Positions 17,827 to 32,150 of a DNA stretch of 64,000 nucleotides are shown here, piece by piece. The DNA comes from Kibdelosporangium sp. MJ126-NF4 (lineage in GTDB: Bacteria; Actinomycetota; Actinomycetes; Mycobacteriales; Pseudonocardiaceae): the NCBI RefSeq assembly GCF_000826545.1, contig NZ_CDME01000016.1, positions 496,001 through 560,000 of the forward strand. The letters run 5' to 3'. The translations under genes and the position numbers were made by a program. Positions within the stretch are counted from its first letter, which is position 1. Each line of letters begins with the position of its first letter. The notes under the pieces are model-generated. The model was not told the DNA's origin. It worked only from the letters and a program-made list of their open reading frames with translations, and ran no database searches.

Positions 17827-19017
17827 TCACCAGGTGACGGGGAGTTCCCGGACGGTGTAGAAGATCGCGTTCTCGTCGAACTCCAGTTTCTCCAGCGGTG
17901 TGGCCAGTTCCAGGGTCGGAATGCGCCGGTAGAGAGTCCCGTAGACGACCTGAAGCTCCACTCTGGCCAGTGGGGCGCCCAGGCACAGGTGCCTGCCGTG
18001 GCCGAAGGCGAGGTGGTGGCGGGCGTCTCGGCCGACGTCGAGTGCGTCGGGGTCGGGAAAGGCCCCGGCGTCCCGGTTGGCCGTGCTCTTCACGGCGACG
18101 ATGCCTTCACCGGCACGGATGAGCCTGCCGCCGATCTCCAGGTCGGCGAGTGCGACCCGACGAGCCTCAGTGTGGGTGACGGACAGGTACCGCATGAGTT
18201 CGTCCACAGTGGAGTCCATGTCGTCGCTTGTCCGGACCGCGTGCATCTGCTCCGGGTTCGCACACAGCGCGGCCGTGCCCAAGGCGATCATGCTGGCGGT
18301 GGTGTCGTGTCCGGCCACGAGCAGCAACTGCCCCACGATGGCGATCTCGCGCGGAGTCATCACACGCGGCTCGGCCGCCAGTGTGCTGAGCAAGTCCTCA
18401 CCAGGCGCAACGCTCTTCCTGGCCACGAGTTCTTCGAGGTAGCCGTTCAGCTCCTCACTCGCCGCCATGGCTTCGTCCGGATCGGACTCGTTCATCACGA
18501 GAGTGCGCGCCACTCCTTGGAAGTAGTCACGGTCGCTGTAGGGGACGCCGAGCAGTTCGCAGATCACCTGCGAGGGCACCGGCAACGCGAACGCGCGCAC
18601 CAGATCCACCGGTTTCGGTCCCGCCAGCATCGTGTCGATCAGGTCGTCGACGATCCGCTGGATCCGCGGCCGCAACGCCGCCATCCGCCTGACCGTGAAC
18701 TCGGGAATCAGCAGCCGCCGCTGAGCGGTGTGCTCCGGCGCGTCCATCTGCATCAACGTCGTCATCTGGGTGTCACGGGCCTTGCTGATCGCGTTGGTGT
18801 GTGGAAAGCCAGGATGTGTGGCGTCGACACTGACACGCGGATCGGCCAGTACCGCGCGCACATCGTCATAGCCGGTAACCAGCCACGGCGTGCTGCCGTC
18901 CCACAACCTCACGCGCGTGACCGATCCACGCCCGGTCAGGCCCGGCGCCGGGTCGAACGGACAACCCGCCGCACGAGCCATCGGAAACTGGTACGGCACA
19001 ACGGTTTCATCGATCAC
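17827..19017 (-). CDS. Cytochrome P450
   Basis: A 396-residue soluble class I bacterial P450. It contains the I-helix oxygen-activation motif AGHDTT (235-240), K-helix ExxR (E273-R276) and the heme loop FGHGRHLCLG with axial Cys345. The start is GTG 19017, six bases after AAGGAG. No ferredoxin or reductase gene adjoins it, so electrons come from partners elsewhere. Substrate unknown. It is convergent with the DICT gene and divergent from the M1 peptidase (158-bp gap, no assignable promoter). Confidence 0.93.
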   Translation of the reverse strand: MIDETVVPYQFPMARAAGCPFDPAPGLTGRGSVTRVRLWDGSTPWLVTGYDDVRAVLADPRVSVDATHPGFPHTNAISKARDTQMTTLMQMDAPEHTAQRRLLIPEFTVRRMAALRPRIQRIVDDLIDTMLAGPKPVDLVRAFALPVPSQVICELLGVPYSDRDYFQGVARTLVMNESDPDEAMAASEELNGYLEELVARKSVAPGEDLLSTLAAEPRVMTPREIAIVGQLLLVAGHDTTASMIALGTAALCANPEQMHAVRTSDDMDSTVDELMRYLSVTHTEARRVALADLEIGGRLIRAGEGIVAVKSTANRDAGAFPDPDALDVGRDARHHLAFGHGRHLCLGAPLARVELQVVYGTLYRRIPTLELATPLEKLEFDENAIFYTVRELPVTW

Positions 19018-19175
19018 AACGACTCCTTGTCCGGTCTGCTGACGCCCTCACATCCTGGACAACTCAACACCGCCGGTAATCAGACAAAAAGGATGTGATC
19101 TGCCTCATATGCACCAGTCGATCGCCGCCGCGCTAGCGTGGTCCCACGTCCATTTCGCGCATCAGGGGGTTTCGC

Positions 19176-20696
19176 ATGCGAGCATGGTCCAGATCGGCGA
19201 TCGCCGCGGCCACAGCCGGATTTGTCGCCCTGTCCACGGTTTCCCCAGCCGCAGCGACGGGAGGAACACCGGGAAGTGCGGGAATAGGAGACGCCTACTA
19301 CCCACTGGCCGGGAACGGCGGCTACGAGGTCTCCCACTACGACATTCGCGTCGACTACGACCCGAAGACCGACCGGCTGACAGGCGTCACCACACTGCGC
19401 GCCAGGACAACACAGGCGTTGTCCCAGTTCAACCTCGACTTCCGGCTACACGTGGACTCAGTACTGGTCAACAACACCGCGGCGCGCTTCAAGTCCGCGG
19501 AAGGCGAACTGGTCGTCACCCCCACCGCGGACCTGCCAAAGAACAGTGACCTGACCATCGTCGTGCGATACGCGGACGTGCCATCCGAGGCGAAGGACGA
19601 AAACGGCTACACACCGTGGGTCCGCAAGCCGGACGGCGCGATCGCGGTGGCCCTGGACATCCCCCGCTGGCTGTACCCGAGCAACGACCACCCGACCGAC
19701 AAGGCCCTCTTCGACTTCTCTGTCGCAGTTCCCGCCGGAGTCCCCATGGTCGCGGGCGGTGAACTGGTCAGCCGAGTCCCGGAAGCGAACGGCAAGGTCC
19801 GCTGGAACTGGCGCAGCAGCAAGCAAACCAACACCTACCAGACCTTCATGGTCGTCGGCGACTACGAAGTACGCCACGCGACCACCCCCAGCGGACAACC
19901 ACTGATCACCGCCTACGGCAAGGACCTCGGCACCAACGGCCCAGCGGCCAAAGCCAGCATCGAGCGCACACCGGAGATCGTCGAGTACCTCGCAAGCCTG
20001 GTCGGACCATACCCGTTCGACTCGCAAGGAGGAGTCGCGGTCACGGGAATCGAGTTCGCACTGGAGAACCAGACCCGACCGGTCTACGGTGACTTCTTCT
20101 TCGCGGAAGGAGCAAACACCTTCGTAGTGGCGCACGAGAACATGCACCAGTGGTTCGGCGACTCGGTGTCATTCGACCAATGGCAGCACGCCTGGCTGAA
20201 CGAAGGCCCGGCAACCTACGCGGAATGGCTGTGGTCAGAACACCTCGGCGAAGGAACAACACAACAACTCGCCGAAGCGACCTACCAAAAATACCCAGCG
20301 AACGACCCATTCTGGCAAATCCCACCCGGCGACCCAGGAGTGGAGAACAACTTCCACGACGTGATCTACGAACGCGGCGCAATGACCCTCCAAGCACTGC
20401 GCACGACAATCGGAGACAAAACATTCTTCACGCTGCTACGCACATGGGTGGCACAGCACAAGTACAGCGACGCCAACACCAGCGAGTTCATCGCACTGGC
20501 AGAAAAACTCTCCGGCAAACAACTGGACGACCTGTTCAAAACCTGGCTGTTCACCAAGGCAAAACCCACCACCAGCCCATCCCACACCACCATCACGGCC
20601 ACCCCGGCGTCCTGGAACAGGATCCAGAAAAACCACCAACTAATCGTCACAAACCGCGAACGACACCACCATCACACCGAACAGCGGTCCCGGTAA
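19176..20696 (+). CDS. Secreted M1-family zinc metallopeptidase
   Basis: A 506-residue exported aminopeptidase-type enzyme. A signal peptide (about 1-28) precedes the N-terminal beta-saddle, and the gluzincin active site HENMH (H320, E321, H324) is followed 19 residues later by the third ligand E343 in WLNEG. The exopeptidase GxMEN motif appears as IEFALEN, as in a known secreted actinobacterial subgroup. It lacks the long C-terminal helical domain of PepN. Codons in the last third shift strongly to A in the third position, and the final 50 bp overlap the convergent SDR gene. Confidence 0.88.
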   Translation: MRAWSRSAIAAATAGFVALSTVSPAAATGGTPGSAGIGDAYYPLAGNGGYEVSHYDIRVDYDPKTDRLTGVTTLRARTTQALSQFNLDFRLHVDSVLVNNTAARFKSAEGELVVTPTADLPKNSDLTIVVRYADVPSEAKDENGYTPWVRKPDGAIAVALDIPRWLYPSNDHPTDKALFDFSVAVPAGVPMVAGGELVSRVPEANGKVRWNWRSSKQTNTYQTFMVVGDYEVRHATTPSGQPLITAYGKDLGTNGPAAKASIERTPEIVEYLASLVGPYPFDSQGGVAVTGIEFALENQTRPVYGDFFFAEGANTFVVAHENMHQWFGDSVSFDQWQHAWLNEGPATYAEWLWSEHLGEGTTQQLAEATYQKYPANDPFWQIPPGDPGVENNFHDVIYERGAMTLQALRTTIGDKTFFTLLRTWVAQHKYSDANTSEFIALAEKLSGKQLDDLFKTWLFTKAKPTTSPSHTTITATPASWNRIQKNHQLIVTNRERHHHHTEQRSR

Positions 20697-21500: not shown

Positions 21501-21516
21501 AACGACTCCAGCCCCC

Positions 21517-21762
21517 AACGAGGCTGGGAGAAGAACTGACTGGTACGCAACCCAACACAGGGCAACCAGCGCCGGAACAGAAAGCCAAGACTGGAAACCA
21601 AACTCCAACGCAACCAATACCACCAAACTCAGTCCCCAACCAGGCTGGAGAGAAGAGCTAGCTGGTACGTATCCAATACAGGGCAACCAGCGCTGGGACC
21701 AAAATCCGAGACTGGAAACCAACCAAACTCCAATGCAACCAATACCACTAACTCAGTCCCCC
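21517..21762. repeat. Two tandem ~120-bp repeat units
   Basis: Units begin at 21517 and 21638 with AAC(G/C)AGGCTGG; a third begins at 21763 and is the left inverted-repeat arm. Periods are 121 and 125 bp. Shared blocks include CTGGTACG, ACACAGGG/ATACAGGG, CAACCAGCGC, GACTGGAAACCAA and CTCCAA. The copies are diverged. No ORF of interest lies here. Confidence 0.75.
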
Positions 21763-21819
21763 AACCAGGCTGGGGAGTAGAACTTGCTGGTACGTAACCA
21801 ACACAGGGTAACCAGCGCT

Positions 21820-23331
21820 CAATACCACTAAGTTAAGGTCAAAATGTGGTAGTGTTTCCCGGTGGCTCGGGTTGGGCAAGTGAAAGTGCGCGGCGACGAT
21901 TCAGCGGCCGTTCGGTTGACAGATCGTATTTCTTTGGGCGTTCTCGCTGAAGTGTTTCCTCGTGATGTTATCGAGGATGTGCTCACGGAGACTGGGTGTC
22001 GCGAGCAGCGAACTCGTTTGCTTCCGGCGCATGTGGTGGTGCGTTTTTGTCAGGCGATGTGCTTGTTCTTCGATGACGACTACGAAGAGGTGATGCGTAA
22101 GCTCGTTGGGTCGTTGAAATCGATGGGCTCGTGGCAGGGTAGCTGGAAAGTCCCGTCGACTTCTGCGATTACGCAGGCTCGACAAAGGTTGGGGGTCGAA
22201 CCGTTGCGCCTGTTGTTTGAGAGAACGGCGGTTCCTGTGGCGCGGCGTGGCACGAAGGGCGCGTGGCTGGGCTTTCGGCGGCTCATGGCGATCGATGGGT
22301 TCATGCTGGACATCCCGGACACAGATGATAACGTCGAAGAATTCGGTCGTAGGACCAACGGCACGAAGGCTAGTGCGTTCCCTCAGGTGCAGTTGGTGGC
22401 GCTGACGGAATGTGGATCGCATGCCGTCGTCGGTGCTGCCATGGGGCCGTGTAACGGGGATGAGAGGGCGCTGGCCAGGCAGATTCTGTCCAGGGCTGAG
22501 TCGGATATGCTGATCACGGCTGACCGGAATTTCTACAGCCTCGACTTGTGGGGTAAATTCCTTGCTACGGGTGCTGACCTGCTGTGGAGGGTCACCGCGA
22601 ATGTGAAACTACCCATTCTGCGCTGGCTTCCCGACGGCTCATACCTGTCCGTTGTATGTCCGAGGAATATTCGGGGTCGGCGGTATGAAGAGCTGATTCG
22701 ACGCGCACGAGACGATGGCGACATTGACGACTCGGAAGGGTACCTAGTCCGGGTCGTTGAATACGATGTTCCGAATCGAGAAGGAAGCGGATCGGATGAG
22801 ATCATCTGTGTGATCACGTCCATCCTGGATCCTGCCGATGCGACCGCCGAACAACTCGCAGCCGCTTACCATGAGCGATGGGAATGCGAAGGCTTCATTG
22901 ACGAGCTCAAGACGCACCAGCGAGGACCGGCCAAGGTACTGCGTTCCAAGTCGCCGGACATGGTACGCCAGGAGATATGGGCATTTCTGCTCACTCACTA
23001 CGGGATTCGCCGACTGATGTGTAATGCCGCAGACGAGATCGGAGAAGATCCCGACCGTCTGTCGTTCATGCGATCTCTCCGAGTCATTCGCCGCCATATC
23101 ACTGGACAGGCGGACTTTTCCCCCTAAACAGCGCGGGAGAGCGCTAAGGGAAACCTTCGCCGAAATCAACGAACGTCGCACCCGTACTCGACGGCACCGG
23201 AGCAATCCACGAGTCGTTAAACGATGGCGACACAACTCCTATACCGTCAAGAAACAGCATCAGCACGGAACTCGACATGATGGGCCGCCTACCATCCGTA
23301 TCCGGGCGACAACCTTAACTTAGTGGTATTG
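21820..23331. mobile_element. IS4-family insertion sequence, 1512 bp
   Basis: Perfect 20-bp terminal inverted repeats (21820-21839 and 23312-23331) starting CAATACCACTAAGTT, and a 10-bp direct target duplication AACCAGCGCT at 21810-21819 and 23332-23341. One transposase gene fills it. Intact ends and duplication suggest recent insertion. IS4-group elements commonly generate 9-12 bp duplications, which fits. Confidence 0.93.
21862..23127 (+). CDS. IS4-family DDE transposase (C-terminus in +1 frame)
   Basis: A 421-residue transposase. The DDE core shows D in LMAIDGFMLDIPDTD, D in DMLITADRNFYS, and the IS4 signature Y-(2)-R-(3)-E-(6)-K in YHERWECEGFIDELK. The start is a GTG 42 bp inside the left end. 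The frame stops at TAA 23125, yet the +1 frame continues with PPKQRGRALRETF...RSNPRVVKR, a normal IS4 C-terminal tail, almost to the right end (23323). Either a one-base insertion truncated the protein, or ribosomes shift +1 at TCC CCC TAA. The catalytic core is complete either way. Confidence 0.9.
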   Translation: MARVGQVKVRGDDSAAVRLTDRISLGVLAEVFPRDVIEDVLTETGCREQRTRLLPAHVVVRFCQAMCLFFDDDYEEVMRKLVGSLKSMGSWQGSWKVPSTSAITQARQRLGVEPLRLLFERTAVPVARRGTKGAWLGFRRLMAIDGFMLDIPDTDDNVEEFGRRTNGTKASAFPQVQLVALTECGSHAVVGAAMGPCNGDERALARQILSRAESDMLITADRNFYSLDLWGKFLATGADLLWRVTANVKLPILRWLPDGSYLSVVCPRNIRGRRYEELIRRARDDGDIDDSEGYLVRVVEYDVPNREGSGSDEIICVITSILDPADATAEQLAAAYHERWECEGFIDELKTHQRGPAKVLRSKSPDMVRQEIWAFLLTHYGIRRLMCNAADEIGEDPDRLSFMRSLRVIRRHITGQADFSP

Positions 23332-23535
23332 AACCAGCGCTGAAACCGTAAGCCGAGGCTGGAAACTGAACTCCAACGTAACCAACAGCGCTAACGCAAT
23401 CAGAAGTAATCCGTTCAAACCGAGCACGGCGGCGGGTGGCCCATGGGTGAGCGGAGCGTGACTCACCATCCACATCCCACAGCGCTACTTGGGCGATTCA
23501 CCCGAAAGAGTACGGCCATGGCTGTGTTTCTTCGA

Positions 23536-23541
23536 TAAAAT
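23536..23541 (+). promoter_or_regulatory. -10 box TAAAAT for a leaderless HNH transcript
   Basis: TAAAAT ends 6 bases before the ATG at 23548, which puts the predicted transcription start on the A of the start codon. No ribosome-binding site precedes the gene. No matching -35 was found. Confidence 0.45.
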
Positions 23542-23547
23542 GGACAC

Positions 23548-24747
23548 ATGTTCGAACAACTAGCTGTGACATTCCATGAACGTCAGGCACCACCGGATAT
23601 CCCGGTGTCGCAGATGGACCGCGAACAAACCCGCAACTACATCGCCGACCGCTACCGACAACGGAACATTGTCGATGCGGAGTTGATCCGGGGTTTGGCG
23701 CGTTTCGCGGAACTGCACCCACCACAGCGGTCGGGGATCGAAGTGGGTGACGGCGCGGCGGAAGACCTCGCGATCGAACTCTGCCTGAGCCCGGTCACCA
23801 CCGGCAAGCAGCTGTCTCAAGCGCAGGCCTTGGTGACGAGACTGCCCGCCACGGTCGAGGCGATGGCGGAGGGTGAGGTGGACGTGATGCGGGCCAAGGC
23901 CATGCACGACTACACCCTCGGCCTGGACGAGGACCAGGCACTCACGGTGGAGAAACGAGTCCTAGACGGCGGGACGTGCGAGAACCTGACCCGGTTCAAA
24001 CACGCCATCCGCCGCGAACTGATCTGGGCCGACCCCGACGGCGAGGAAGAACGGCGCCAGTTGAAGAAAGCCGGACGGGATGCCGTCAAGTGGCACAAGC
24101 CCGACGGCACCTCCGCCATCACCATCACCCTGCAACCACACGAAGCCGAACAGGCCTACTCCCAACTGGATCTGCTCGCCAAACTCAGCCCCAAGCCGGG
24201 CCGGAGCCGGGCACAGGCACGAGCGGACGTGTTCATGGACCTGGTCACCTTCAGGAGGACAGTGGATCGTCCTGCGGCGGCGGTGCATGTACTGGCGCCG
24301 ATGACCACCCTGATGGGACTCAACCGCGAACCCGGCGAGATCAGCGGCTACGGACCCATCACCGCCGAATACGCCCGCGAACTCGCCCACCACGCCACCT
24401 GGCGACGAGTCATCACCGACCCCACCGGACAAGTCCTCGAAGTCAGCCGGAAACGATTCGCCTCACCCGCATTGCGACGACACCTCCAGCTACGGGACTG
24501 GACCTGTCGCCAGCCGGGCTGCGCGGTTCCGGCACAACGGTGCGAAACCGACCACTCCCAGCCCCACAGCCACGGCGGGGTGACCAGTCAAGACAACCTG
24601 GCCATGTTCTGCAAACGCCACAACCTCATGCGGCAACGCACCAACTGGCAACTCGAACACCCCAAGCCCGGCACCCTCGTCTTCACCACCCCCAGCAAGC
24701 AAACCCACGTCACCACACCCCAGGCCCACGACGCCCCGCCGTTCTAA
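23548..24747 (+). CDS. DUF222-domain HNH endonuclease
   Basis: A 399-residue protein. An N-terminal helical DUF222 (13E12 repeat) domain spans roughly 20-290, with the typical MDREQTRNYIADRY, EAMAEGEVDVMRAKA and RARADVFMDLV segments. A C-terminal HNH nuclease with zinc-binding cysteines covers about 315-370: CRQPGC, CETDHSQPHSHGG, NLAMFCKRHN. Actinomycete genomes often carry many such genes and their role is unsettled. This copy lies symmetrically between the inner ends of the two inverted-repeat arms (70 bp on the left, 12 bp on the right), which suggests it is the element's own enzyme. Confidence 0.85.
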   Translation: MFEQLAVTFHERQAPPDIPVSQMDREQTRNYIADRYRQRNIVDAELIRGLARFAELHPPQRSGIEVGDGAAEDLAIELCLSPVTTGKQLSQAQALVTRLPATVEAMAEGEVDVMRAKAMHDYTLGLDEDQALTVEKRVLDGGTCENLTRFKHAIRRELIWADPDGEEERRQLKKAGRDAVKWHKPDGTSAITITLQPHEAEQAYSQLDLLAKLSPKPGRSRAQARADVFMDLVTFRRTVDRPAAAVHVLAPMTTLMGLNREPGEISGYGPITAEYARELAHHATWRRVITDPTGQVLEVSRKRFASPALRRHLQLRDWTCRQPGCAVPAQRCETDHSQPHSHGGVTSQDNLAMFCKRHNLMRQRTNWQLEHPKPGTLVFTTPSKQTHVTTPQAHDAPPF

Positions 24748-24758
24748 CCCGCCGCTCC

Positions 24759-24930
24759 GGGATGTGGATGGTGAGCCACGCTCCACTCACCCATGGGCCA
24801 CCCACCGCCGTGCCCGGCTTGAACGGATTACCTCTGATTACGTCAGCGCTGTTGGTTACGTCGGAGTGCGACTCCCAGCCTCGGCTCACAGTCACAGCGC
24901 TGGTTACCCTGCGTTGGTTACGTACCAGCC
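24759..24930. repeat. Right inverted-repeat arm (172 bp)
   Basis: Begins 11 bp after the HNH stop with GGGATGTGGATGGTGAG, the reverse complement of the left arm end at 23478. The inner 108 bp match the left arm at 99 positions, and weaker similarity continues to about 24955. The 24748-25055 gap holds no gene. Confidence 0.85.
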
Positions 24931-24962
24931 AGTTTACCTTTTCCAGCTGGCTTGCCCCTTGG

Positions 24963-25055: not shown

Positions 25056-26963
25056 TCATGCTTCTGTCAGGCGGCGGGTGAGTTCGTTGACCGTTGGGTT
25101 CTCCATGATCAGCCGCACTGGCACGCGCAGTCCGAGTTTCTCCTTCAGCCTCGCGGCCATTCGGACGGCGATCATCGAGTGCCCTCCCAGCGAAAAGAAG
25201 TCGGCGTCCGGTTCGATCGCCGCTATCCCGAACAGATCGCACCACAGCGCGGTGACGGCTTGTTCGATCTCCCTTGACTCTTCAGTTTCGTTGAGCCACC
25301 GGTCACCCACATGTCCCGCGATGCTGTTCGAAGGCCCGAGTTCAGCGGACAGTTCGCCCCACAACGCGTCCAGTCGACGGCGGGCAGTCTCACACGCGAC
25401 GTCAGCCAGATCCGCCGTTGTGGGAAGCGTGACGGAACGGGCCAACACCACCGCCATTCCCAGCAGTTCGCTGCCGATCCGCCCCAGCAGCGCGGTAACA
25501 CGCTGCCGGGCAAAGAGCTCGGCCTGCGAGAACTCCCCGGTCAACGCCTGACAAGTCAAGCCAAGCCGCGCCGCCTGAGCCTCAACGTAGTCACGGTGCC
25601 CGCCACCACGCGGCTCGGGCACATGCACAGGCAAGTCACCGACAACCAGATCGCCCGAGTAGTAACACTGTGCCAAGTTCGCCTCAGCTGACCACCGGTC
25701 CATCATCACATCGACGCCGCCCGCCACACGCAGCGACCGCGCGTCCCGCAAACAACGTTCAACCGGCAGCGGTTGCGCACCGCGAGCGGCTTTGCTGCGT
25801 GCCGTCTCGTAACCCTCCCCGCCCAGCAACGACACAGTCCGGTCAATAGCACGCCAAGCACCCAGCGAGGTGAGGTTCTTCGCCGCCGTAAGTTCCGGTC
25901 CCGTATCGGCGCGTCCAAGCAAGCACCACAGCTGAACACTCTCGATCGCATACGCCTCCGCAGCGATCTCGCCAACCGACCGCCGCGTCTCCTCGTACGT
26001 CCCCAGCGCGTGACTGTCAATGCTGCGTCGGTTCACGAACTCCCGAGCCCACCGCAGCGACGAGCGAGCGACGGCCAACGACGGCGGGCCGATCACCAGG
26101 TGACGGCCAAGCGCAGCCAAACGGCTCAGGTCGAGGCCCTGCCCACCAGCACCGTTGGAACCGGGCCGCATCCGCCACCCCTGGTCGACAGACTCAGGCA
26201 TCAGCCGGTCGGCGGGCACGCGAACCCCGGACAACCGCAGCACCCCGAACGGCGCACCCCGCAAACCCATGAACTCCTGCCTGGTCACAACCTCGAAGCC
26301 AGGACTGCCAGTGTCGACAAAGAACATCCGGACCGCCGAATTGCCGTCAGCATCAACGACAGTCGCGGAGACATCGAGAAACCCGGCAACCGCCCCATTG
26401 CCGATGAAAAGCTTCTCGCCGGTGATCAGGTAGTCAGCACCGCCGTCAACGGGCACAGCGACCGTGGTCCTGGCCTGGTTTGCGGCTCCGGCGACCTCCG
26501 CGTCAGCCGTACCGGAAACAATCCCCTTGGCGACCCGGTCGGCGATGATGTCCCGCAGCAACCCGGGCGGCAGCACCTGCAGATACGACCCCGACCCGAA
26601 GCCGTTGTGAATCGACAAGACGAACGCGACAGGCATCGACCAGTCCGCAGCAGCCTCCACCACCCGGCACGCGTTCAGCCACGACAGCCCGAGCCCACCC
26701 AGCTCAGGCGAGATCATCAGGCTCAACATCCCGGCATCCCGCAGCTCGTCGAACAAGCCATCGGGCAACTGCCCACTGGCCTCCACCGCCTCAGCATCCA
26801 CACAGCGACGCAGCAGATCGGTGAGGACGGCAACGGCCTTGTCCCCGGCACGACAGTCAGCCTCGTCCTGCTCAGGAAACGGAGTCAGCAGATCCCAGCG
26901 TGTCCGTCCGGCGTACAACTCCCGAAGCACGCTGGGAACCGGCGAGGTGTCGGAGAAAGTCAT
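25056..26963 (-). CDS. Acyl-CoA dehydrogenase fused to a C-terminal carrier protein
   Basis: A 635-residue two-part protein. Residues 1-~530 form a flavin acyl-CoA dehydrogenase fold (SGTADAEVAGAAN and LITGEKLFIGNG flavin region; LLGGEGYETARS near the end of the core, with a candidate catalytic Glu). Residues ~555-635 are a peptidyl/acyl carrier domain with FFSLGGHS (phosphopantetheine Ser596). Stand-alone relatives oxidise carrier-bound substrates, for example prolyl-PCP to pyrrolyl-PCP; here enzyme and carrier are one chain. ATG 26963 follows GGGAGCGG and overlaps the upstream PKS gene by 92 bp. It is the last gene of the operon. Confidence 0.85.
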   Translation of the reverse strand: MTFSDTSPVPSVLRELYAGRTRWDLLTPFPEQDEADCRAGDKAVAVLTDLLRRCVDAEAVEASGQLPDGLFDELRDAGMLSLMISPELGGLGLSWLNACRVVEAAADWSMPVAFVLSIHNGFGSGSYLQVLPPGLLRDIIADRVAKGIVSGTADAEVAGAANQARTTVAVPVDGGADYLITGEKLFIGNGAVAGFLDVSATVVDADGNSAVRMFFVDTGSPGFEVVTRQEFMGLRGAPFGVLRLSGVRVPADRLMPESVDQGWRMRPGSNGAGGQGLDLSRLAALGRHLVIGPPSLAVARSSLRWAREFVNRRSIDSHALGTYEETRRSVGEIAAEAYAIESVQLWCLLGRADTGPELTAAKNLTSLGAWRAIDRTVSLLGGEGYETARSKAARGAQPLPVERCLRDARSLRVAGGVDVMMDRWSAEANLAQCYYSGDLVVGDLPVHVPEPRGGGHRDYVEAQAARLGLTCQALTGEFSQAELFARQRVTALLGRIGSELLGMAVVLARSVTLPTTADLADVACETARRRLDALWGELSAELGPSNSIAGHVGDRWLNETEESREIEQAVTALWCDLFGIAAIEPDADFFSLGGHSMIAVRMAARLKEKLGLRVPVRLIMENPTVNELTRRLTEA

Positions 26964-29900
26964 GCGTCCGCTCCCGGAAGTAGAAGTGACCACCCGGAAA
27001 GATCCGTGTCTCGAACGGCCCGGTGGTGTAGTCGCGCCACGCGGCCAGCAAATCCCCGCGTTCCCCGTCGTCGCTGCCGCCGAGCACCGTGATGGCGCAC
27101 GACAGCGGAGCCGCGGGCTGGGCACGGTAGTTCGCCACGATCGTCAGGTCAGCGCGCAGCACCGGCAGCATCAGCTCAAGCATCTCGGGGCTGGCGGTGA
27201 GTTCCGGTGGCAGCGCCCCGTACTTCGCCTCGACGGCGTCAACGAGCTCAGCGTCCGCGAAGTGCTGCAAGTCCCCCGCCGGGTGATGCAGATGCGGCGC
27301 GCGAAACGCCGAGAGGTAAAGCCGTTGCGGCCCAGGCCGTCCGGCGTCCCGCAGGGCACGCGCGGTCTCGTACGCCACCAGCGCGCCGAGGCTGTGCCCG
27401 AAGAACACGTACGGCTCCACCAGTTCGACACCGGCAACGAAGTCCGCCACCAGTGCCTGCATGGACGTGTACGGCGGCTCGGCAACACGGTGGCCCCTGC
27501 CTGGCGGCTGCACGGCGAACAGCTCGACACCGGGCAGGCTGTCCGCCCAAGCCAGGTACTCCCCCGGCGAACCACCACTATGCGGAAAGCAGTACATCCG
27601 CAGAGGCGCGTCCGGCCGTCGCAGGCGACGCAGCAGCCAGTGCGGGCTCCGCGCGGTTTCGGCCGGACCGCTGGGGTCGTCGATGAGCGCGGCGAGCCGG
27701 GAGACTGTGGGCGCGGCGAAGAACGCCCGTGCGGTGAGACCGTCGCCGAGTTCGGCGCGGACATCGGCGAGGATGCGGGAGGCGATGAGCGAGTCACCAC
27801 CGAGGTCGAAGAAGTCGTCGTGCACACCAACTTCGGGCATGCCCAACGCGTGGGCGAACGCGGTCGCCAGAATCTTCTCAACAGGTGACAGAGCCGGTGC
27901 TTCGACGGCGACAGCAACGGCACTGTCTGTACTGTCCTCGTCGAGCCGAAACCTGCTGCGCTGGAACGGATACGCGGGCAGCTCCACCTTCCGGCGGGGA
28001 CGGCCACGGTGCAGGGCGGGCCAGTCGATGCTCACGCCGGACGCCCACAACCGACCGGCCGCCCGCAGCATCGAGACCGCCCCGCCGTCCCGGTCGGGTG
28101 CCCCGGCCGCCGCGAGGCTCTGCGCCAGCGGACGGCCCGGCCCGCAGTCGGGATGGCGACGCGCCAGTGTGCTGAGCGTGTGCCCAGGACCGACTTCCAG
28201 CAGAGCGTCGTCGCCCATGTCGAGCAGCGTCGCGAGCGCGTCGGAGAAACGGACGGTCTGCCGCAGGTGTGCCGTCCACGAGGTCGGATCCTGGGCCTCC
28301 TGGGCGGTGACCACGGAGCCGGTGCGGTCGGAGATCCACGGAATCACCGGTGGCCGTGGCGAAACACCTGCGACCGCGACCGCGTACTCGGGCAGCACGG
28401 CGTCGACGAACGTCGAGTGCGCGGCGGCGGAGATCCGCAGCGGCCGCACGTCAACGCCCCGCGACTCCAGCAGTTCCCGCAGCGCCCGCACCTGCTCGGC
28501 GGGCCCGGTGACCACGCACTGGTCAGGGCTGTTGATCGCACCGATGACCAGGTCGCCGGTGAGCAGCGGTTCGAGTTCGCCAGGCACAAGCGGAACGGCG
28601 AGCATGGACCCGGCGGGCAGACCGTCAAGCAGGCGGCCTCGGGTAAGCACGAGCGTCATCGCGTCCGCAAGAGTGAGCACACCAGCAGTAGCGGCGGCGG
28701 CGTACGCGCCGAGGCTGTGTCCGAGCACAGCCGCCGGGATCACGCCACGCGCCTGCCACAGCTGTGCCAAAGCGTGCTGGACCGCGAACAGCACCGGCTG
28801 ACAGACCCGCATGGTGTCGAGTTGTGTCTGTGCCCAGGTTTCGGCGCCCGGCACCGGGTAGAGGACCGTTCGCAAATCAAAACCCAACTGAGAAGCGGCC
28901 AGATCCGCTGAGGCGTCGACGGCGGTGCGGAAGACAGGTTCGTCGCGGTAGAGGTCCTCGCCCATCCCGAGGTACTGGCCGCCCTGCCCGGGAAACAGGA
29001 ACGCGACGGAACGCCCGTCCCGCGTGGCCTGGCCGGATGTCAGGTCCTCGGACAGCGCACGGGCGGCCGCGGCACGATCCGCGGCGACAACGAACGCCCG
29101 CTGAGGGAAGCCGCGCCGCCCGGTCTGCAGCGTCCAGGCGATGTCACCGAGCGGATCACCAGATCTGTGCAGGTGGTCGGACAGTTCTCGAGAGGCTGCG
29201 GACAGTGCTTGGACAGTCCGCGCGGACACGGGCAGCAGGTGATGCCCGTCGTACTCAGGCTCGCGTCGCGCCGGGACAGGTGCTTCCTCCAGCACGACAT
29301 GCACGTTCGTTCCGCCGAGACCGAGGGAGTTCACGGCAGCGCGTCGGGGAGTGTCCCGCGATGGCCACGCGAGTGGCTCGGCACTGACCACGAAGGGGCT
29401 GCGTTCCAGCATCAGGTCGGGATGCGGGCCGCGGAAGTGCCGTGTGCCGGGGATGATGCCGTGCCGCAGTGCGAGGACCGCGGTGATCAGCCCGATCACG
29501 CCCGCGGCCGCGTCGGTGTGACCGATGGCGGACTTCACCGAGTTCAGCCTGCAGAAGCCGGTGGCGTCGGTGCCGAGAGCGAACGCCTTGGTCAGCGCGC
29601 GGACCTCGATCGGGTCGCCGACTTCCGTGCCGGTGCCGTGCGCTTCGACGTACTCGATGGTCGCCGGGTCGACATCGGCGACGAGATGAGCGGCCCGCAC
29701 AGCCTCCGCCTGGCCCACGACACCGGGAGCGAGGAAACCCACCTTGCCCGCGCCGTCGTTGGTCACCGCCGAGCCACGGATCACCGCCAGCACACGGTCC
29801 CCGTCAGCGAGTACGTCTTCAAGCCGCCGGAGCACGACGACACCGGCTCCGTCGCCCGCGACCGTGCCGTTCGCTGCGGCGTCGAACGAGCGGCACCGCG

Positions 29901-30531
29901 CGTCGGCTGACAGCACGCCGTCGTCGCCTTCGCCTTCGACTGGTGCCGGGACATGAACCGTCACCCCGCCCGCCAGTGCCAGGTCACAGTCACCCGCCAG
30001 CAACGCCTGCCCGGCCAGGTGCACCGCGACCAACGACGTGGCGCAGGCGGTCTGGATCGACACGGCGGGCCCACGCAGGTCGAGTTTGTAGGCGACGCGG
30101 CTGGTGAGGAAGTCAGGCCCGGAGGCGATGTGGAACTCCCACGGTGTGCTGCCGGGGAAACGGTGCCGGTGCTCGCGCAGCGCGGCGGGATGCTCGGTGA
30201 TACCGCAGCCGCCGAAGACACCGATCACGCCAGGGTGGCCGGTGGGGTCGCATCCGGCGTTTTCCAGTGCCTCCCAGGCACATTCGAGGAACACCCGGTG
30301 CTGCGGGTCGAGCATCAGCGCCTCACGCGGGGAGAACCCGAAGAAGGACGCGTCGAACTCGTCGGCGTCCGGCAGCACGCCATAGCCGTGCACACGCCCG
30401 TTCGTATCTATGGGGCCGCGGGTGATCTGGTCGGTCCCGGCCAGCAGGTTGGCCCAGAACGTGGGGACGTTCCGCGCGCCGGGGAACCGGCCCGCCATGC
30501 CGACAACGGCCAGTCCCTCGATGCCGCTCAT
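26872..30531 (-). CDS. Type I PKS termination module: KS-AT-ACP-TE
   Basis: A 1219-residue module. KS (about 5-420): active-site Cys163 in QTACATS, His298 in EAHGTGTEVGDP, His338 in SAIGHTD. AT (about 505-800): FPGQGGQ and Ser606 in GHSLG; the specificity region reads AAAHSTFVD, closer to malonyl than methylmalonyl types. A post-AT linker ends LPAYPFQRSRF. ACP (about 885-950): Ser914 in DLGGDS. Type I thioesterase (about 970-1200): Ser1047 in GHSLG. No KR, DH or ER, so it adds one two-carbon unit without reduction and releases the chain. ATG overlaps the C-PCP stop as ATGA. Confidence 0.93.
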   Translation of the reverse strand: MSGIEGLAVVGMAGRFPGARNVPTFWANLLAGTDQITRGPIDTNGRVHGYGVLPDADEFDASFFGFSPREALMLDPQHRVFLECAWEALENAGCDPTGHPGVIGVFGGCGITEHPAALREHRHRFPGSTPWEFHIASGPDFLTSRVAYKLDLRGPAVSIQTACATSLVAVHLAGQALLAGDCDLALAGGVTVHVPAPVEGEGDDGVLSADARCRSFDAAANGTVAGDGAGVVVLRRLEDVLADGDRVLAVIRGSAVTNDGAGKVGFLAPGVVGQAEAVRAAHLVADVDPATIEYVEAHGTGTEVGDPIEVRALTKAFALGTDATGFCRLNSVKSAIGHTDAAAGVIGLITAVLALRHGIIPGTRHFRGPHPDLMLERSPFVVSAEPLAWPSRDTPRRAAVNSLGLGGTNVHVVLEEAPVPARREPEYDGHHLLPVSARTVQALSAASRELSDHLHRSGDPLGDIAWTLQTGRRGFPQRAFVVAADRAAAARALSEDLTSGQATRDGRSVAFLFPGQGGQYLGMGEDLYRDEPVFRTAVDASADLAASQLGFDLRTVLYPVPGAETWAQTQLDTMRVCQPVLFAVQHALAQLWQARGVIPAAVLGHSLGAYAAAATAGVLTLADAMTLVLTRGRLLDGLPAGSMLAVPLVPGELEPLLTGDLVIGAINSPDQCVVTGPAEQVRALRELLESRGVDVRPLRISAAAHSTFVDAVLPEYAVAVAGVSPRPPVIPWISDRTGSVVTAQEAQDPTSWTAHLRQTVRFSDALATLLDMGDDALLEVGPGHTLSTLARRHPDCGPGRPLAQSLAAAGAPDRDGGAVSMLRAAGRLWASGVSIDWPALHRGRPRRKVELPAYPFQRSRFRLDEDSTDSAVAVAVEAPALSPVEKILATAFAHALGMPEVGVHDDFFDLGGDSLIASRILADVRAELGDGLTARAFFAAPTVSRLAALIDDPSGPAETARSPHWLLRRLRRPDAPLRMYCFPHSGGSPGEYLAWADSLPGVELFAVQPPGRGHRVAEPPYTSMQALVADFVAGVELVEPYVFFGHSLGALVAYETARALRDAGRPGPQRLYLSAFRAPHLHHPAGDLQHFADAELVDAVEAKYGALPPELTASPEMLELMLPVLRADLTIVANYRAQPAAPLSCAITVLGGSDDGERGDLLAAWRDYTTGPFETRIFPGGHFYFRERTHDFLRHLAGSQRASGVVRRTDTLGSADSVS

Positions 30532-32150
30532 CGGGTCGTCCTGCGCCGCCGCAGCCGGTCGCGCCCGGCGACCAGGCGTTGCGTCGGCCGTTCCGGCGTG
30601 GCCGAACCGGCCAGGTGCTGGGCTAGCGCCGCCACGGTCGGGAATTCGAGCAGCGCCACCAGCGGCGGTGGTGTCCCGGTCAGCTCCCCGAGTCGGTTGC
30701 GCACGGACGCCAACGCTTGTGATGTACCGCCGAGGTCGAAGAAGTTGTCGTGCACACCGACCTCGGCCAGTCCCAGCACGTCCTGCCAGATCCGGGCAAG
30801 GTCGCGTTCCATGCCTGTGTGCGCTCGGGCTGTGGGAGCCGCCACCGGTCGTGGTGTCTCGGGCTCCACAGGGGGTTCGATGTCCGCCAGCGCGGGGTTG
30901 GCCGAGAGTGGCGCGTGTGGATCGGCCGCAGTTGCCAGCAGCCGCTCGAAGCGGTCGGCCAGCCGCCGGATGGTGTTCTCGTCGAACAGGTCGGTCCGGT
31001 AGGTGATCATCAGCCGGAAGTCGTCTCCCGCCTCGGTGGCGCGGAAGATCGTCATGTCGATGTCCACTTTGGCGTCGTCGGGCTGGCACTCGATGGCGGT
31101 GGCGGTGGTGCCGGTGAGCCTCGGGTCCGCGAGCGGCGTCGTCTCGAAGGAGAAGAACGCCTGGACCAACGGGGAATGCGCGGGGTCGCGGTCCGGTGCC
31201 AGCTCGGCGACGAGCCGGTCGAACGGCACCTCCTGCTGCCCGAGGATGTCCAGCAGTTCGCTCTGCGTCCGCTTGGCCAGCTCGCCGAACCCGGGATCGC
31301 CCGTGGTGTCGACCATGACCGGCAGCGTGTTCACGAAGAACCCGATCACGGACTCGAGTTCGGCCCGGTCTCGGCTGCTCACCGGCACACCGACGAGCAC
31401 CTGGGGCTGGCCGGACATCCGCGCCAGCAGAGCCGCGTACGCCGTCAGCGCCAGGACGAACAGCGTCACCCGCAACGACCGTGCCAGGGCGAGCGCGGGT
31501 GTCATCACCGCGGCCGGAAGCGTGTGGAAGTGGTTCGCGCCGCGCATGCTCGCCACGCGCGGCCGAGGCCGGTCGGTCGGCAGCCGCAGCACTGTCGGTA
31601 CCCCGTCGAGCTGTTCACGCCACCACGTGAGGTCTTCGGGCGACGGCGGGTGGCCGAGCTGCCAGGCCGCGTGGTCGGCGGGCTGGACCGGCAACGGGGG
31701 CAGGTCGTCGCGGCCGTCGTAGAGGTCCGCGAGTTCGTTGAAGAACAGGTGGATCGACGGGCCGTCGGTGACGAGCTGGTGCATCACCACGACCAGGATG
31801 TGCCGTTGCGGCGCGAGCTGGATCAGCCGGGTGCGGATCAGTGGACCGTGTTCGAGGTCGAACGGCTCCGCGACCCACTGCCGGACCAGGTCCAGTGCGC
31901 TCGACTCGTCAGCCTCGATGACCGGGAGGTCAACGGCCGGTGGTGAGATTCGTTGGGCGGCAGCGGGAAACGTCGTGCGCAGGGCTTCGTGGCGTGTCAC
32001 GATCCGGCCGATCGCGGCCTCCAGCCTGGGCACGTCCAGCGGGCCGTCGAACCGGGCCGCGACCGGGACGTGATGCATCGACGTACCCGGATACAACTGT
32101 TCCACCAGGTAGAGCGCGCGCTGAGACGGGGAGAGCGGCCGTACGGTCAT
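30528..32150 (-). CDS. NRPS condensation domain-PCP didomain (variant active site)
   Basis: A 540-residue protein with a condensation domain (about 5-430) and a PCP (about 440-515, DLGGTS, Ser477) but no adenylation domain. The C-domain core motif HHxxxDG reads HQLVTDG (124-130): the second, catalytic His is Gln125. Other C-domain landmarks are normal (RHEALRTTF, GFFVNTLPV, QEVPFDRLV). Gln may still position the acceptor amine, or the domain may only bind partners. It should receive an amino acid from the A domain encoded just upstream. Both ends overlap neighbours by ATGA. Confidence 0.9.
   Translation of the reverse strand: MTVRPLSPSQRALYLVEQLYPGTSMHHVPVAARFDGPLDVPRLEAAIGRIVTRHEALRTTFPAAAQRISPPAVDLPVIEADESSALDLVRQWVAEPFDLEHGPLIRTRLIQLAPQRHILVVVMHQLVTDGPSIHLFFNELADLYDGRDDLPPLPVQPADHAAWQLGHPPSPEDLTWWREQLDGVPTVLRLPTDRPRPRVASMRGANHFHTLPAAVMTPALALARSLRVTLFVLALTAYAALLARMSGQPQVLVGVPVSSRDRAELESVIGFFVNTLPVMVDTTGDPGFGELAKRTQSELLDILGQQEVPFDRLVAELAPDRDPAHSPLVQAFFSFETTPLADPRLTGTTATAIECQPDDAKVDIDMTIFRATEAGDDFRLMITYRTDLFDENTIRRLADRFERLLATAADPHAPLSANPALADIEPPVEPETPRPVAAPTARAHTGMERDLARIWQDVLGLAEVGVHDNFFDLGGTSQALASVRNRLGELTGTPPPLVALLEFPTVAALAQHLAGSATPERPTQRLVAGRDRLRRRRTTR

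Follow-up and report, generated by a model that had tools for sequence, protein, structure and literature searches.

This locus raises the question whether a single gene, encoding a protein with DUF222 and HNH domains, and the two long inverted repeats (arms) around it form a mobile element, and which enzyme would then move it. The gene lies in a stretch of 64,000 nucleotides (the window) of Kibdelosporangium sp. MJ126-NF4 (contig NZ_CDME01000016.1, positions 496,001 to 560,000 of the forward strand). That gene and arms move as a single unit is well supported, because in relatives (genomes and loci are given G and L numbers) they occur together at differing places and are absent as a whole from two homologous sites. 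The unit is a Pseudonocardiaceae mobile element of ~1.5-2 kb, made of one DUF222-HNH gene and two long inverted arms. The best explanation (probability about 0.56) is a single-gene element, moved by the action of its own HNH nuclease on the arms and built on a plan like that of the REP-associated tyrosine transposases (RAYTs; REP, repetitive extragenic palindrome) and with an unrelated enzyme.

The left arm of the window is interrupted by an IS4-family insertion sequence, which is therefore a later passenger and lies outside the unit. The insertion is flanked by a 10-bp direct repeat, AACCAGCGCT (21810-21819 and 23332-23341). Its target was the AACCAGCGCT stretch, within the conserved CCAGCGC(T/C)GG core of the arm module. 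The passenger in this one arm carries the sole DDE transposase gene found at the window's unit, and none is encoded as the unit's own. The first-pass annotation stated that no transposase belongs to the arms; the insertion that splits the left arm had gone undescribed.

With the insertion sequence set aside, the arms aligned end to end without gaps, as had been claimed, over 182 bases (160 matches, 18 transitions, 4 transversions), and the match scored 187 bits, against 21.1 bits for the top of 100 shuffles. The inner 108 bases had been credited with 99 matches and with transitions as the only differences; the recount gave 98 matches, 9 transitions and 1 transversion. Tandem repeats of 121/125 bp, built from arm-like modules, occupy positions 21513-21819 ahead of the left arm. 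All features are listed in Table 1.

Table 1. Coordinates of the unit, its arms, the passenger and related modules (window positions, unless a locus is named).
Feature	Coordinates	Strand	Evidence
Left arm, outer part up to the insertion sequence	21781-21819	+	95% complementary to 24896-24934; resumes at 23342
Left arm, inner part	23342-23484	+	153-bp stretch 23332-23484 87% complementary to 24753-24905
Right inverted arm	24753-24934	-	160/182 matches to the rejoined left arm
86-bp conserved core module, right arm	24845-24930	-	Profile match E 3.7e-20
DUF222-HNH gene (399 aa), single gene of the unit	23548-24747	+	PF02720 E 1.3e-20; PF01844 E 6e-4
HNH zinc-finger motif C320, C325, H336, N350, C355, H358	24505-24621	+	Conservation among relatives
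IS4-family insertion sequence inside the left arm	21820-23331	+	21-bp perfect inverted repeat 21819-21839/23312-23332
IS4-family transposase	21862-23127	+	NF033592 (NCBIfam) E 3.2e-67; PF13006 E 4.3e-33; PF01609 E 2.7e-16
Extra arm-core module, tandem copy outside the left arm	21540-21619	+	Profile match E 7e-13; 121/125-bp tandem family
Extra arm-core module, tandem copy outside the left arm	21661-21744	+	Profile match E 2.1e-15
Module + palindrome composites	L001 5593-5902; L070 5039-5344; L072 4971-5138 (remnant palindrome)		

The arms enclose one DUF222-HNH gene and no other, as first read. The HNH match of its product reached 20.3 bits, just below the Pfam cut-off of 21.4 bits. In the zinc-finger motif, C320, C325 and C355 were invariant and H336 and H358 at least 90% conserved among 61 aligned proteins, and N350 was at least 90% conserved among 17. 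An AlphaFold2 model (mean predicted local distance difference test score, pLDDT, 88.6) predicted an all-helical N-terminal part, a mixed middle and a C-terminal HNH part. A fold search with the modelled protein returned nothing at E up to 0.001 and no convincing match for the helical part; the HNH part was partially matched to the HNH nicking endonuclease 4h9d, with a probability of 0.93 but an E-value of 0.9. When the sequence profile was compared with solved structures, a weak Cas9 match extended across the HNH part (E 0.0045). Pfam detected no DDE domain in the DUF222-HNH proteins, and in Pfam the window protein is DUF222 plus HNH, not a Y1 tyrosine transposase (Transposase_17). Judged from the HNH motif, DNA cleavage by this protein is plausible. 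The nearest protein cluster (12 members, 97% identity to the window protein) takes its name from Kibdelosporangium sp. MJ126-NF4, so the gene is probably multicopy in this strain.

The arms are not confined to the window, and none of the findings that the first-pass annotation had named as refuting turned up. A search with the right arm gave matches in 10 of 390 Pseudonocardiaceae genomes (in three of them short and weak), and arms were present in seven of the eight Kibdelosporangium-like genomes of the detailed follow-up. Forty-one copies of an 86-bp core module were aligned, and a sequence model then counted the module, with 150 candidates scored per genome; at E up to 0.001 the eight genomes held 58 copies (G001 1, G214 1, G215 9, G216 0, G217 11, G218 1, G219 22, G220 13). 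The 14 complete inverted pairs fetched from G215, G220 and G219 enclosed a DUF222-HNH gene in 13 cases and a fragment in one (gene or fragment in 5/5, 5/5 and 4/4 pairs, respectively), and additional G219 copies ended at contig ends. The proposed check, whether arms flank other DUF222-HNH genes, thus came out positive apart from the fragment and from one pair without a gene in a fourth genome: at L158 3943-4648 (G217), two inverted arms lie ~190 bp apart, one module is damaged and no DUF222 gene was found. This locus looks like a derivative of the kind of miniature inverted-repeat transposable elements (MITEs). Arms also occur alone in G217, where eight of the nine loci searched had no DUF222 gene and the ninth had one ~3 kb off; near two further solo arms (L123, L124) the genome-wide listing held no PF02720 match, no dedicated search having been made there. 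At L037 4596-5708 (G219), another open reading frame (ORF) lies within the unit, and of the DUF222 gene only the first 68 residues remain.

Units consisting of arms and a DUF222-HNH gene were multicopy in three relatives, at differing, non-homologous places, and similarity between same-genome copies was essentially that of the unit and of flanking repeats of at most a few hundred bases. Unoccupied sites were surveyed for 12 elements (L051 and L057 singly, ten in one query). Both flanks were found close together in relatives for L055, L056 and L035; the other nine elements gave no such site. For L055 (G215), 1759 bp separate the conserved flanks, versus 31 bp in G217, and with flanks anchored further out the distances were 1935 bp versus 241 bp in G218. 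For L056 (G215), 1898 bp compare with 122 bp in G219 and 118 bp in G217, and at this site ~0.7-2.8 kb of different DNA is present in five other relatives. For L035 (G219), 2038 bp compare with 24 bp in G217, the left flank being anchored by 2.6 kb more at 91%, and ~1.1-1.6 kb of different DNA occupies the site in three other relatives. The arm module was not found, at E up to 1, at any of the 13 homologous loci fetched. Since L035 is confounded by insertion-sequence relics (see below), two clean compact empty sites remain (L055 and L056, both in G215) among the 12 elements; multicopy units and compact arm-free sites together support the claim of the first-pass annotation that gene and arms spread as one unit. 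The window's own element gave no unoccupied site, its left and right flanks mapping to different places in relatives.

These sites bear on a reading that takes the nuclease for a domesticated enzyme of arm binding or repair and explains the number of units by segmental duplication and dispersed-repeat recombination. It would account for the ragged unit ends in G215 and for the junctions of three elements, in which neither target duplication nor a common target was seen by eye (most flanks being too divergent for base-exact junctions). It would also account for one site on the 3' side of the same gene (presumably TetR-like), where G215 carries a full unit and G217 a solo arm. The limited extent of the similarity between copies, the compactness of the unoccupied sites and the recurrence of the inverted-arm plan around the gene in several families (below) speak against duplication, which was considered very improbable.

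Elements lay between convergent genes in 11 of 26 classifiable cases versus 13 of 68 control pairs (Fisher p 0.03), a result to be taken as a hint, with 11 further elements unclear and crude gene calling. Some G215 units (L055-L058) adjoin apparent terminator hairpins at gene 3' ends, as seen by eye.

The same plan was found with other arms. To count as armed, an ORF needed flanking inverted arms of at least 50 bp and 70% within 900 bp. The eight genomes held 81 PF02720 matches, and 77 DUF222 ORFs were called in the fetched loci, nine of them untestable at contig ends. Arms were detected for 27 of the 68 testable DUF222 ORFs (26 loci; some broken genes count twice) versus 2 of 163 testable control ORFs; of these two controls, one sits inside a DUF222 unit. 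In other genera, arms flanked 15 of 39 testable DUF222 genes versus none of 96 control ORFs; these loci were picked among the best matches, and 15/39 is not a population estimate. The HNH motif pattern was present in 19 of 22 armed proteins checked. Detected arms measured 57-366 bp and fell into differing families. Besides the window's module, these included a palindrome found in G214 and a second family in G220, whose arms are ~290-370 bp long and in which Pfam scores the HNH domain. Ten of the 12 G214 palindrome copies are the arms of five units, one lies beside a DUF222 remnant and the remaining one is on a contig without a PF02720 match. The palindrome also occurs in G218, G216 and G001, and two G216 copies surround one gene. 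Module and palindrome stand side by side upstream of a DUF222 gene or remnant in G001, G214 and G218 (the palindrome as a remnant in G218), and their joint presence in three genomes suggests that composite arms may be ancestral.

Armed genes were also the more amplified ones: 25 of 26 armed versus 12 of 38 unarmed genes had a paralog within their genome at 75% identity or more (eight genomes; Fisher 9e-8), with the caveat that arms are more readily recognised where copies are intact. In a tree of 107 proteins, built by a quick method and with several long branches flagged, armed genes formed recent species-specific clusters and many unarmed genes looked like single orthologs. DUF222 itself is widespread, with matches in 203 of 296 class-wide genomes. 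A plan common to all DUF222 genes was rejected: when the top PF02720 scorers of these 296 genomes (long canonical DUF222 genes) were sampled class-wide, 2 of 29 testable loci had inverted repeats, both weak. Among other Pseudonocardiaceae loci (L231-L259), 4 of 29 were armed, which makes 6/58 with the class-wide sample.

Folding differed between arm families. Single arms of G214, G225, G248 and the second G220 family formed strong hairpins (z -5.30, -6.28, -7.32 and -4.70, respectively). In the second G220 family, 10 of the 89 pairs predicted carried two-sided changes, and changes matching on both stem sides were seen by eye in the G248 alignment; hairpin-templated correction could keep pairs too, so covariation alone is no proof of function. 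The full window arm folded no better than shuffles (z -0.09), eight cores of its family gave z -1.75 to +0.23 and one G219 arm gave z -2.08. With two-sided changes in none of 8 predicted pairs (41 copies, 86-bp core), hairpin recognition was rejected for the window's family and kept for others. The proposal of hairpin-based transposition made for this locus is therefore not supported for its own arms, and the strong hairpins belong to single arms of four other families.

Arm sequences were also compared as mean identities between the two arms of an element and between same-side arms of different elements. Own versus same-side values were 93.5/94.3 in G219, 95.4/95.1 in the first G220 family, 82.7/89.7 in G215 (L059 left out), 91.9/94.4 in G214 (L145 left out), 89.0/90.8 in G225, 86.4/91.8 in G248 and 91.6/84.1 in the second G220 family (7 elements, without the copies at contig ends). 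Homogenisation of both arms at each transposition, in the manner of long terminal repeats, was rejected in general and found support in the second G220 family alone.

These comparisons touch on homing, in which the HNH nuclease would cut arm-like sequences or empty alleles and recombinational repair would copy the gene and convert paralogs, the arms serving mainly as homology tracts and cleavage sites. The HNH domain is what such a process would call for, arms in G219 and in one family of G220 lack side identity, as would follow from exchange, and the REP13E12 (DUF222) loci of M. tuberculosis are described as gene-conversion hotspots (PMC13061034). Homing agrees poorly with copies at non-homologous sites and with unoccupied sites that have no arm to give homology. 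Nor do arms often match their own partner best (1/8, 0/8 and 0/8 in three families, 6/14 in a fourth). Homing was judged distinctly unlikely.

The ends of the G219 units bear on a further explanation, in which ordinary DDE transposases move the units in trans or within larger insertion-sequence structures, with DUF222-HNH carried along as a passenger gene. A DDE insertion sequence of 898 bp, with tips CTTAGAGTTCC...GGAACTCTTAG, has intact copies in G001 (L300 1885-2782; DDE_Tnp_1 E 5e-21). Its relics lie within 600 bp of all six G219 units tested (L035, L036, L037, L038, L043, L045), where their tips touch the unit ends and sometimes the outer junction, and of none of 37 other units, which included those of the window and of G215; the search covered this insertion sequence alone. 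At L035 a relic tip stands at the host junction, so this site is evidence about the insertion sequence no less than about the unit, and DDE transposition would account for it. The solo arms and the two-arm unit without a detected gene resemble MITEs, as DDE transposition would also lead one to expect. The absence of relics at the 37 other units argues the opposite way, and each of the differing arm families in several genera would need to have captured the same kind of gene. Movement by DDE transposases was regarded as unlikely, though in G219 the relics give it direct if circumstantial support.

Recurrence of the unit with differing arms, together with unoccupied sites free of arms, weighs against these rivals, and mobilisation by the unit's own nuclease is preferred. 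We infer that mobilisation is the work of the DUF222-HNH protein itself. Arm binding would fall to its helical DUF222 part, the target being the conserved 86-bp module in the window's family and hairpins elsewhere, and nicking or cutting at the arms to its HNH part, after which the unit would be copied or pasted to another position. The solo arms would then be non-autonomous by-products, like the REPs of RAYTs. That DUF222-HNH is a new kind of transposase, in which an HNH nuclease alone recognises its own long inverted, often hairpin-forming, arms and moves or copies the unit, is a more tentative claim, held at slightly less than even odds.

Several results weigh against mobilisation by the nuclease, besides the ragged ends and the lack of a visible target duplication or common target. 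The class-wide DUF222 sample is essentially unarmed, and close paralogs accompany the 12 of 38 unarmed genes counted above. Multicopy DUF222 genes without arms occur in G213, G231 and G242, and multicopy unarmed families also in G001, G215, G216 and G219, so arms are not required for DUF222 multiplication. The window's arms have no hairpin, hence no single recognition rule holds for all families, and in one G220 family (L050-L054) the arm module is flipped relative to the gene when compared with the window, G215 and G219. Three of four armed G225 proteins (L260, L261, L263) have Gln in place of the HNH Asn, which L262 retains, and Pfam gave no HNH score in single G225 and G248 examples. The abutting relics, finally, may mean that a DDE insertion sequence moved the units in G219, or that units and insertion sequence prefer each other's ends. 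Because the relic at L035 leaves two clean unoccupied sites instead of three, the probability of mobilisation by the unit's own nuclease was lowered from 0.62 to 0.56, and that of a new kind of transposase from even to its present level.

Among known systems, RAYT units consist of one nuclease-type gene flanked by inverted REPs, with solo repeats elsewhere (PMC2817692). The window's unit shares the gene between two inverted repeats, and its relatives share the hairpins (in several arm families) and the solo arms. It differs in its enzyme, which is DUF222-HNH and not a Y1/HUH tyrosine transposase, in arms of 57-366 bp instead of short REPs, in numbers (at most 22 arm cores per genome among the eight) and in the lack of a hairpin in the window's own arms. 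The REP13E12/13E12 repeats of Mycobacterium are DUF222-HNH genes in multiple copies (PMC13061034; PMC10589994), and 13E12 repeats are still described as without defined function (PMC13061034). The window protein resembles them in its DUF222 and C-terminal HNH domains and in being multicopy; the likeness is one of protein families, arms having been compared in the class-wide DUF222 sample alone (2/29, weak).

DDE insertion sequences and MITEs offer a second parallel, with a single gene between inverted repeats, gene-poor derivatives and, in G219, a DDE neighbour. The DUF222-HNH protein, by contrast, has no DDE domain, no target duplication was seen, and the arms are far longer than the typical terminal repeats of DDE insertion sequences. 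Free-standing and intron HNH homing endonucleases are examples of an HNH nuclease as a mobile gene; the copies described here differ in lying at non-homologous, not allelic, sites and in having inverted arms of their own. Casposons, too, lie between inverted repeats and are mobilised by a nuclease that belongs to none of the classical transposase families, but they carry Cas1 and polymerase genes, whereas this unit holds DUF222-HNH only. Among the papers listed as matches, no title or abstract opening describes such a unit, in a literature that excluded subscription journals and most preprints.

If DUF222-HNH is indeed a new kind of transposase, the units would form a class of autonomous transposable elements outside the DDE, HUH, tyrosine, serine and Cas1 groups, parallel to RAYT/REP, and would point to a possible ancestry of the widespread actinobacterial DUF222/13E12 genes. 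Mobilisation by the unit's own nuclease, if correct, would add another enzyme chemistry for transposition. For a subset of DUF222-HNH genes, an anatomy, a natural substrate (the arms), unoccupied-site evidence of movement and several replicate families are now in hand, which makes their function directly testable.

Among plasmid and phage records, only distant homologs of the protein were found (at most 33.9% identity in 8 plasmid records and 39.4% in 7 phage records), and Rfam gave nothing at the gathering threshold in seven armed loci. The neighbours of the window's unit (17827-20696 and 25056-31089) read as cytochrome P450-like, metallopeptidase-like and large polyketide/peptide synthetase-like genes, and the genes to its right match G219 and G215 at 73-74% DNA identity.

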